A stretch of DNA of 64,000 nt, from positions 2,666,001 through 2,730,000 of the forward strand of contig NZ_JBGKAD010000001.1 of NCBI RefSeq assembly GCF_041361345.1. The letters run 5' to 3'. The stretch comes from Halobaculum sp. MBLA0147 (GTDB lineage Archaea; Halobacteriota; Halobacteria; Halobacteriales; Haloferacaceae). A program made the position numbers and the translations under genes. Under the pieces are notes generated by a model, which was not told the DNA's origin, ran no database searches, and saw only the letters and a program-made list of their open reading frames with translations. Position 1 is the first letter of the stretch, and every line of letters starts with the position of its first letter. Positions 4,761-40,070 of this stretch are shown here, piece after piece.

Positions 4761-6044
4761 ATGGAGATATCCGTCGACGCCGAGCGACTGCGGGCCGACA
4801 TCGAACGGACGGGGGCGTTCGGAGCCGTCGAGACGACCGAGGGCCACGGCCGGACGGTCCTGGCCGGCACCGAGCCGAACCGACGGGCACGCGAGTACCT
4901 CTGCGAACAGTTCGACGCGGCGGGGTTGACGACGACCGTCGACGCAGTCGGCAACGTCGCCGGCACGTGGACGCCCGCGTCGGCCGACCCCGACGCCGCG
5001 CCCGTCGCCGTCGGGAGCCACCTCGACTCCGTCCCCGAGGGCGGGATCTTCGACGGCCCACTCGGGGTGTACGCGGGACTGGAGGCGGTCCGCGCGCTCC
5101 AAGACGCCGGTGTCGAGCCGACGCGACCGATCACCGTCGTCTCGTTCACGGAGGAGGAGGGCCAGCGGTTCGCGGACGGCCTCCTCGGCTCCTCCGTCGC
5201 GGTCGGCCACCGGAGCGTCGCGGAGGCACTCGCACTCGAGGACGACGACGGCGTCACACTGGAGACGGCGCTGTCGGAGATCGGCTTCCGGGGGGAGGGA
5301 CTGCTCGCCCCGAGCGAGTGGGACGCGTGGTTCGAACTCCACGTCGAACAGGACACGGTGCTGGAGACGGCCGGCGTCCCGGTCGGCGTGGTGACGACGA
5401 TCACGGGGATCACGCACTGTGAGGCGACGCTGCGTGGCGAGGCGAACCACGCCGGCGCGACGGGGATGGACGACCGCACGGACGCGCTGGCGGCGGCCGC
5501 CGAGTTCGTCTCGGCGGTCGAACGCGCCGCGACCGAGGTGGTCGCGACGGACAGCGAGTCGGCGGTCGGGACGGTCGGCTCGCTGGACGTGGCACCGAAC
5601 GCCACCAACGTCGTCCCGGGGACGGTGACGGCCGGCGTCGACGTCCGGGACGTCGAGCGAGAGTCGATGGAGCGGATCGTCGCTCGCGCCCGCGAGACGC
5701 TGGCGCGACTCGAACGCGAGCGGGGCGTGGAGACGAGCTTCGAGCGGCCGTTCGACCTCGACCCGACCCCGATGAGTGACCGGCTCCGGCGTGCGGCCCA
5801 CGACGCCGGGGCGCAGGCCGGACTGGAGACGCTGGACCTCCACTCCGGCGCGGCCCACGACACGATGCACGTCGCGGACGCCACCGACGCGGCGCTGTTG
5901 TTCGCCCCCTCGCGCGACGGGATCAGCCACAACCCGTTGGAGTGGACGGACTGGGACGACTGCGCGGCCGCCACGCGGGTGCTCGCGGGTGCGCTCGCAG
6001 ACGCTGCGGGTGCGTCACGTGACGGGTCTCAGGGCGGCACGTAG
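4761..6044 (+). CDS. M20-family amidohydrolase (N-carbamoyl-L-amino-acid hydrolase / allantoate amidohydrolase type)
   Basis: This 427-residue cytoplasmic enzyme of the Zn-dependent M20/M28 amidase group hydrolyses carbamoyl- or ureido-type amide bonds. Metal-ligand motifs appear in order: VGSHLDSVPEGG (His and Asp), FTEEEGQRF (Glu pair), ELHVEQDTVLE (His), and the C-terminal HSGAAHDTMHVA. A dimerisation domain lies between them (about residues 210-330), including the ITHCEATLRGEANHAGAT stretch. I start at the ATG at 4761; a GTG five codons upstream (4746) is possible. The exact substrate (N-carbamoyl amino acids, allantoate or ureidoglycolate) cannot be read from sequence, and no urate-pathway genes are nearby. 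Confidence 0.87.
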   Translation: MEISVDAERLRADIERTGAFGAVETTEGHGRTVLAGTEPNRRAREYLCEQFDAAGLTTTVDAVGNVAGTWTPASADPDAAPVAVGSHLDSVPEGGIFDGPLGVYAGLEAVRALQDAGVEPTRPITVVSFTEEEGQRFADGLLGSSVAVGHRSVAEALALEDDDGVTLETALSEIGFRGEGLLAPSEWDAWFELHVEQDTVLETAGVPVGVVTTITGITHCEATLRGEANHAGATGMDDRTDALAAAAEFVSAVERAATEVVATDSESAVGTVGSLDVAPNATNVVPGTVTAGVDVRDVERESMERIVARARETLARLERERGVETSFERPFDLDPTPMSDRLRRAAHDAGAQAGLETLDLHSGAAHDTMHVADATDAALLFAPSRDGISHNPLEWTDWDDCAAATRVLAGALADAAGASRDGSQGGT

Positions 6045-38234: not shown

Positions 38235-39416
38235 TCAGACGACCGCGTCGACCACGGTGAAGGCGGCGTAGCCGCCGCCGAGCGAGAGGGCCAGCGAGCC
38301 GAGCCACGCGAGGACGGTGTACACCATCTTCCGGCGGGAGACGCCGCTCCCACCGGCGGCGTAGCCGGAGCCGACGATCGCCGAGACGATGATCTCGTTG
38401 AACGAGACCGGAATCCCGAACGCGACCGCGGTCTGTGCGATGGCGAACGAGGGGATCAACGCCGCGATGGACCGCCGCGGTCCGAGACTCGAGTAGTCCT
38501 GCGACAGCGCCTTGATCATCCGCGGCGCGCCGGTCCACGAGCCGGCGAGCAGCCCGAGGCCGCCGCCGACCAGCAGGGCGATCACCGGGAGGTCGATCCC
38601 GTCACCGAGTAGCGGCACCAGCGGGCCGATGGCGAGTCCGACCTGCGACCCACCGGCGGAGAAGGCGACCAGTCCGCCCAACACGAGCAGGAAGTGGCGC
38701 TGTCCGGCGGTCTCGTCGCGACGCAGGTCGAGCCAGAGTAGTCCGCCCGCGAAGCTCGCCGCGGCGAGCGTGACGACGACGGTCCCGACGGCTCCACCGC
38801 CGACGAGTGGCCCGGCGAGACTCGCGAGCGATCCCTGTTCGCCGGCCGGGCCGAGGACGGTGAAGCCGACGTTGGCGAGGATCGCACCCACGAGCCCGCC
38901 GAGTGCGGGGACGGCGACGGTCTCGGGGACGGACTCGGCCCGCAGAATACGGGCCGTCGCGTAGGCGACCGAGCCGCCGACGACGGGGACGAGCGCCCAC
39001 AGCGTCGCGATCTCCGTGTACTTCGCCCACGCCGGGTCGCCCCCGAGCGCGAGTCCGACGCCGACGACGGCGCCGGTGACGGTGAACGCGGTCGCGATGG
39101 GGTAGCCGGCGAAGACGCCGATCGCGACGAGGATCGCCGCGGTGAGCAGCCCGACGATGGCCGCGACGGCGGTGATCGTGACGCCGCCGATCAGCGAGGT
39201 ACCGACCGCCTCCGTCACGTTCGCTCCCTGGAGGACGGCCCCGAGGAACCCGAGAATCCCGACGACGAGTCCGGCACGCATCACGGAGATGGCGTTGGCC
39301 CCGACGGCCGGCGCGAACGGTGTCGATCCGGAGGAGCCGGCCCCGATGGCCCACGCCATGAACAACGACGCGACGCTGGCGACCGCGAACAACCCCAGCG
39401 TCTCCAGGCCTACCAT
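38235..39416 (-). CDS. Inorganic phosphate transporter, PiT family
   Basis: This 393-residue polytopic transporter has the PiT signature near the N-terminus (VGANAISVMRAGLVVGILGF with the GAN core, followed by GAVLQGANVTEAVG). A repeated second half shows SAIVGSGYAAGGSGVSRRK near the end. About ten helices are seen. It imports phosphate with H+ or Na+. Start at the ATG at 39416; the open frame extends nine codons upstream without membrane character. Convergent with the CNNM gene (50 bases apart). No phoU-like regulator is adjacent. Confidence 0.88.
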   Translation of the reverse strand: MVGLETLGLFAVASVASLFMAWAIGAGSSGSTPFAPAVGANAISVMRAGLVVGILGFLGAVLQGANVTEAVGTSLIGGVTITAVAAIVGLLTAAILVAIGVFAGYPIATAFTVTGAVVGVGLALGGDPAWAKYTEIATLWALVPVVGGSVAYATARILRAESVPETVAVPALGGLVGAILANVGFTVLGPAGEQGSLASLAGPLVGGGAVGTVVVTLAAASFAGGLLWLDLRRDETAGQRHFLLVLGGLVAFSAGGSQVGLAIGPLVPLLGDGIDLPVIALLVGGGLGLLAGSWTGAPRMIKALSQDYSSLGPRRSIAALIPSFAIAQTAVAFGIPVSFNEIIVSAIVGSGYAAGGSGVSRRKMVYTVLAWLGSLALSLGGGYAAFTVVDAVV

Positions 39417-39591
39417 ACCGCGCACCTCGTCGCCCGCACACAAGTGGGTGTCTACTCTGTCGTCGGATCGAGTGTGCGAGGGCTCTCTGCCGGACTGGGA
39501 TCGTCCCGACTGTGTACAGTCGACTCCGATCTGGTATCGATCACACTACGAAACGACAACGACGAATTCGATAATCTGCACACAGTAAAGC

Positions 39592-39595
39592 TTAT
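39592..39595 (+). promoter_or_regulatory. TATA-like element of the secreted-protein gene
   Basis: AAAGCTTATG includes TTAT about 30 bases before the ATG at 39624. The surrounding 60 bases are A/T-rich in an otherwise GC-rich genome, as expected of a promoter. Confidence 0.45.
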
Positions 39596-39608
39596 GTCTG
39601 GTGCAATA

Positions 39609-39623
39609 GTGATACATTATCAC
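39609..39623. promoter_or_regulatory. Perfect palindrome abutting the start codon
   Basis: GTGATA-CAT-TATCAC is a perfect 6+3+6 inverted repeat ending one base before the ATG at 39624. It lies between the TATA-like element and the expected transcription start. Repressor binding here would block initiation. The regulator is unknown. Confidence 0.6.
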
Positions 39624-39872
39624 ATGCGACGTGTACTACTGACGGTCGCGGTCGCAGTCGGACTGCTCGCACTGACACAGGGTGCCGCTGCAGCACCCAC
39701 TCCGACGGAGTCGGTCGACGCGGACGTCGCCACGTGGGACGAACCGATCGACGACTGTGTCGGCGTCTGTGACGACGAGACGATCTCCAGTGTCGGTGAC
39801 CCCGTGAACTTCGCCACGTGGGACGAACCGATCGACGACTGTGTCGGTGTGTGTGACGACGAGACGGTCTGA
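39624..39872 (+). CDS. Small secreted protein with duplicated CVGVC motif
   Basis: This 82-residue precursor has a Sec-type signal peptide (MRRVLLTVAVAVGLLALTQG then AAAAP, probable cleavage near residue 24). The mature part is about 58 residues and acidic. It carries two copies of an 18-residue block, ATWDEPIDDCVGVCDDET, spaced 28 residues apart. Each has C-x3-C, so four Cys could form two disulfides or bind a metal. The DNA copies are almost identical (39729-39781, 39813-39865). The family is unknown; a halocin-like or surface peptide is speculation. The upstream frame to 39444 is not part of the gene because the signal peptide sets the start. Confidence 0.7.
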   Translation: MRRVLLTVAVAVGLLALTQGAAAAPTPTESVDADVATWDEPIDDCVGVCDDETISSVGDPVNFATWDEPIDDCVGVCDDETV

Positions 39873-39914
39873 TCCCAGAGACAGACGGGTGGTGTGACCA
39901 CCCGAGCGGCACTC

Positions 39915-40070
39915 TCACCGTTTTCCGCGCTGGTACTCGCGCATCGAGTTCACGAGGATCCGTCTGAGGAAGAAGTAGCCGCCGAACACCAACACGAGGA
40001 GCCCGACGACGATCACCGTCAGGTCGGGGTCGGCGGTGAGCAGGTCGACCGCGCCGTCGACGACGCCCAT
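39915..40070 (-). CDS. Small single-pass membrane protein, 51 residues
   Basis: One hydrophobic helix (LTVIVVGLLVLVFGGYFFLR) follows a short acidic N-terminus; a basic C-tail ends REYQRGKR. Such small membrane proteins are common in haloarchaea and unknown in function. The ATG at 40070 begins MGVVDGAVDLL. It is transcribed opposite to the TRAM gene, whose ATG lies 111 bases away, and it converges on the secreted-protein gene. Confidence 0.6.
   Translation of the reverse strand: MGVVDGAVDLLTADPDLTVIVVGLLVLVFGGYFFLRRILVNSMREYQRGKR

Follow-up and report, generated by a model that had tools for sequence, protein, structure and literature searches.

With moderate confidence, we regard a short open reading frame (ORF) in the window, i.e. 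the whole stretch of 64,000 nucleotides of Halobaculum sp. MBLA0147 that was analyzed, as a protein-coding gene whose family is confined to the genus, evolves fast and encodes small, acidic, exported peptides with a role outside the cell. Directly seen in the DNA are the ORF and its repeat, the same-locus relatives with their conserved signal peptide and TATA-like element, the insertion of the gene between its neighbors and its patchy presence. The locus has the following features:

38235..39416, minus strand: PiT-type phosphate permease gene (PF01384 domain match), divergently transcribed neighbor
39591..39596, plus strand: TATA-like element CTTATG, beginning 33 bp before the ATG, at the same distance in both relatives from the congener G002
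39609..39623, no strand: palindrome GTGATA-CAT-TATCAC (perfect 6-bp arms, 3-bp spacer), between the TATA-like element and the ATG
39624..39872, plus strand: ORF of the putative exported peptide, 82 amino acids, ATG to TGA, read directly from the sequence; relatives at the same locus in G002
39624..39695, plus strand: predicted signal peptide MRRVLLTVAVAVGLLALTQGAAAA, of which 17/24 and 14/24 residues are kept in the two G002 relatives
39729..39782, plus strand: block 1, ATWDEPIDDCVGVCDDET, 18 residues, read from the sequence
39813..39866, plus strand: block 2, the same 18 residues, 52/54 nucleotides identical to block 1
39886..39904, plus strand: hairpin CGGGTGG-TGTGA-CCACCCG downstream of the stop codon (weak, z = -1.6 for the folded region)
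39915..40070, minus strand: DUF7859 gene (PF25258 domain match), small single-TM protein, convergent neighbor

Sequence features of the ORF

The TGA stop codon lies at 39870-39872; the interval 39609-39872 begins at the palindrome. The signal peptide combines an RR n-region with a strongly hydrophobic core (Kyte-Doolittle mean of 2.4 for residues 3-17) and an Ala-rich end. Its cleavage site is putative, and Sec is the more likely export route than Tat. The mature part after residue 24 comprises 58 residues with 18 Asp/Glu, four Cys and zero Lys/Arg/His, which gives a computed pI of 4.05. The first-pass annotation had described two 18-residue blocks, 28 residues apart and nearly identical in DNA, and this was confirmed: the translations are identical, the blocks lie 28 codons apart, and both nucleotide differences are synonymous third positions. 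The spacer of 10 residues (30 nucleotides) between the blocks is unrepeated. This repeat is far beyond chance. In a single-sequence AlphaFold2 model (mean pLDDT 50) a helix was found only at residues 5-16, within the signal peptide; the mature part showed no helix at a pLDDT of about 45, a value that in such a model has little bearing on disorder.

Relatives in the genus and searches beyond it

A DNA search of the genus led to two tandem relatives on contig C238 of the congener G002, in exactly the same place, flanked by the PiT and DUF7859 genes:

L121:241-492, minus strand: relative of 83 amino acids, ATG start, same signal peptide, weakly similar mature part
L121:599-814, minus strand: relative of 71 amino acids, GTG start, same signal peptide, weakly similar mature part

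The window protein is 46% and 41% identical to them over the alignment. All three members share the location and the signal peptide MRRxLxTxxVAVGLL, and between the copies the NG86 dN/dS of the signal-peptide codons (2-24) is about 0.34-0.42, an estimate from few codons. Moreover, the mature part of the window protein shares a weak motif, DPxxxxTxDEPV/I, with the first G002 copy (shuffle p = 0.003), whereas the comparison with the second copy gave p = 0.22. While the PiT neighbor is 84% identical between the window species and G002, the mature parts of the small peptide are far more diverged, and the family consists of three sequences only, which are barely alignable in this region. That the product is a small secreted protein, as had been proposed, thus gained support from the signal peptide that both G002 copies retain in this position. 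Its description as a CxxxC-repeat protein holds for the window copy but not for the relatives: one has a single C-terminal CTAPC, the other is Cys-free, and the doubled 18-residue block is absent from both. CxxxC pairs are therefore not a defining feature of the family.

Pfam, NCBIfam and PDB contained no match for the 82-amino-acid protein, in agreement with the earlier statement that it has no recognized family. Profile searches of 170 genomes of the family and 392 of the order revealed no convincing member outside the genus. Besides the gene itself, a whole-protein search of 60 relatives returned only matches with E > 0.009, mostly signal-peptide-like or chance, and the mature part alone gave chance-level matches only in 391 genomes. 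The profile matches in other families were other secreted proteins that score via their signal peptide, for example those of a conserved f7 family with MQRRTLLTIA..PADGPPDDLPDPVPEFVSDIL. A conserved family of small secreted proteins, MQRRTLLTIAIAVTLLVGATGAATAQPADGPPDDLPDPVPEFVSDILGAISDFVGG.., was also seen in many g34 genomes of f7 (L172-L176, L178, L181-L183, L185, L186, L190). A 73-amino-acid secreted protein of G198 (L180:1489-1710) with DAPITND and ADEPISGGGGGDDGGC looks alike but was set aside: it adjoins trm56, and in G317, a close relative of G198, only a decayed C-terminal remnant was seen in the same place (L194:1450-1590). A search for a phage or plasmid source was negative, and no relative was found in the genome_contigs collection, viral contigs, phages or plasmids.

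Genomic neighborhood and origin of the gene

In about two dozen other haloarchaeal loci, including those of Halobaculum, Halonotius, Haloplanus, Halogranum, Haloferax and Haloprofundus, the DUF7859 gene stops 0-139 bp before the start of the PiT gene on the same strand. The two genes are thus normally adjacent and probably co-transcribed; this arrangement also suggests that they form a functional pair. In the window they are about 500 bp apart. Since DUF7859 and PiT adjoin in other haloarchaea, the small gene represents an insertion specific to its lineage, placed between them on the opposite strand. Directly beside the small ORF there is no gene for a partner, for immunity or for processing.

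In a second congener, G001, the flanking genes are adjacent with nothing between them and the small gene is absent. In G003 the PiT and DUF7859 genes lie on different contigs, and no profile match to the family was found there, the single hit (1.7e-4) being a larger unrelated secreted protein. The PiT proteins of G001 and G002 are 86.2% identical, those of the window species (G000) and G001 85.5%, and those of G000 and G002 84.4%. These identities do not group G000 with G002, so that the patchy presence of the gene likely reflects either a loss in G001 or a separate acquisition. An inverted repeat, ACGGTCGTGCGTAG...CTACGCACGACCGT, resembling a miniature inverted-repeat element, was seen in G003 (L123:4222-4276) and in L024 (about 4810-4925), a locus that holds one of the nearest PiT relatives; it is absent from the window.

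Promoter, palindrome and terminator

The upstream region is A/T-rich, as had been noted, with 40% GC in the last 90 bp compared to 69% in the window. A CTTAT or TTTAT element at -33 is kept in the window gene and both G002 copies, from which we infer a promoter role of the element at 39591..39596. At this distance from the ATG the 5' leader would therefore be very short or absent. The perfect palindrome abutting the start codon (ATG at 39624) is present as described, but our results do not support the operator control ascribed to it. The 4.29-Mb genome contains a single exact GTGATA-N3-TATCAC; the closest other sites carry two mismatches, and none of them immediately precedes an ATG. Both G002 copies lack the palindrome but keep the -33 element. 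Moreover, the window contains 57 perfect inverted repeats with 6-bp arms and a 3-bp spacer. When the intergenic region was dinucleotide-shuffled, an inverted repeat with 6-bp arms and a spacer of 0-8 arose within the final 60 bp in about 10% of cases; the tested range stopped short of the last bases of the region, so that the real count omits the palindrome and the shuffle fractions are slightly low. The single genomic occurrence, the absence from G002 and this chance estimate make a regulon operator unlikely, and the palindrome is probably a chance feature. A local repressor site gained no support either. The hairpin downstream of the stop codon is a possible terminator between two convergent genes.

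Coding status and proposed role

The GC3 of the ORF (0.72) is below that of four neighboring genes (0.90-0.95) and lies between 0.69 and 0.72 across all three family copies; the codon usage is therefore unlike that of an established gene. This would also be expected of a young or decaying ORF without selected function, i.e. a signal-peptide-bearing stretch that is weakly expressed at most and drifts. The divergence of the mature part almost past alignment and the absence of the gene in G001, given that G001 is slightly nearer to G002 than G000 is to either, fit this explanation as well. However, the frame has stayed open in three copies despite large length changes, substitutions in the signal peptide lean synonymous, the TATA-like element is kept, the gene was tandemly duplicated in G002, and both differences between the blocks are silent. 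Drift thus retains a modest chance, and on balance the codon usage and the family comparison point to a real gene that is young or weakly expressed.

For such a gene of an exported peptide, we propose that its own TATA-type promoter would give rise to a nearly leaderless mRNA. Guided by the conserved signal peptide, which would then be removed, the product would enter an export pathway, most likely Sec. About 58 flexible acidic residues, which in the window species bear two copies of the WDEPIDDCVGVCDDE unit, would be released or retained at the surface, where they may interact with closely related strains in recognition or antagonism. Export, cleavage and disorder, and most of all a role outside the cell, are our reading of the sequence. 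A role among close relatives is proposed because a constant export tag is combined with a cargo that varies, becomes duplicated and disappears; variability, duplication and loss together suggest such an interaction.

A halocin-like or surface-peptide role of the product is possible. The product is small and probably secreted, and it is restricted to its lineage, variable and duplicated; this fits strain-level antagonism by a peptide precursor that acts either directly or once an extracellular protease has cleaved it. Protease-activated haloarchaeal precursors exist: HmHapP, the nearest documented one in the literature searched, has a coding part of 705 bp without the signal peptide, and its activity depends on N-terminal helices (PMC12893001). 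In contrast, the mature part studied here has no modeled helix and no basic residue or His beside its 18 acidic ones, a sequence relative is lacking in the family searches, and the locus offers no adjoining immunity or processing gene. We consider this explanation rather improbable.

Metal capture had also been proposed. A secreted metal- or cation-binding peptide would use the CVGVC pairs flanked by Asp/Glu, or else the cysteines would form disulfides; the two identical acidic CxxxC blocks, with four Cys in total, and the terminal CTAPC of one G002 relative are in line with it. Nevertheless, the family members have 4, 2 and 0 Cys in their mature parts, and the PiT and DUF7859 genes occur without the small gene in other genera. 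Because the Cys are not conserved, metal capture is not a shared function of the family unless they are dispensable, and the proposal is weakened to a slim chance. By analogy with multi-copy pheromone precursors, the product could be a propeptide from which an intercellular signal is released, the repeated block being its active unit. Two identical units around a different spacer and a conserved leader before variable cargo are in keeping with this. However, the G002 relatives lack the repeat, neither a dedicated receptor nor a dedicated protease was identified, and the titles and abstracts searched contained no archaeal peptide-pheromone precedent, so that this is very improbable.

Comparison with known systems

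Haloarchaeal CPxCG zinc-finger microproteins are small cytoplasmic proteins with two Cys pairs in CPxCG motifs. The window protein resembles them in size and in its two Cys pairs, but has CVGVC motifs and a predicted signal peptide instead of two CPxCG motifs and no signal peptide. Halocins (C8, S8, H4) and HmHapP are likewise small or precursor proteins with haloarchaeal export and often later processing; however, family searches (Pfam, NCBIfam, PDB) revealed no sequence relation, and HmHapP is far larger and helix-dependent, whereas the mature part of the window peptide is an acidic stretch of 58 residues in which no helix is predicted.

Secreted proteins of about 100-170 amino acids, consisting almost wholly of xPIT(xD)-type repeats, were observed in f17, mainly in genus g44 (L229-L237, L245; e.g. 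L229:1456-1959 in G236). They share the signal peptide MNTRxLGILLGFVVLGIAFTGGAAA, and none occurs in the genome of the window. Similar to the window gene, they encode a signal peptide followed by short repeats with xPI motifs, including DEPITQD. However, they differ in locus, in signal peptide, in their many short units and in the lack of Cys. Homology to the window gene is at most tentative.

Taxonomically restricted small secreted proteins, such as fungal SSPs, also combine conserved export with variable short cargo and patchy presence, although the window gene is archaeal and has no host context. At present it is an orphan whose function is inferred. If expressed, it would offer a testable case for the birth, duplication and loss of an exported-peptide gene in a single archaeal genus, and it would be a candidate for interaction between haloarchaea by means of peptides, for which few systems are known. 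A more far-reaching interpretation, which we consider doubtful, is a hypervariable archaeal secreted-peptide locus in which leader and promoter are fixed while the cargo diversifies and duplicates for strain-level recognition or antagonism, a logic comparable to that of pheromone or bacteriocin precursor loci.
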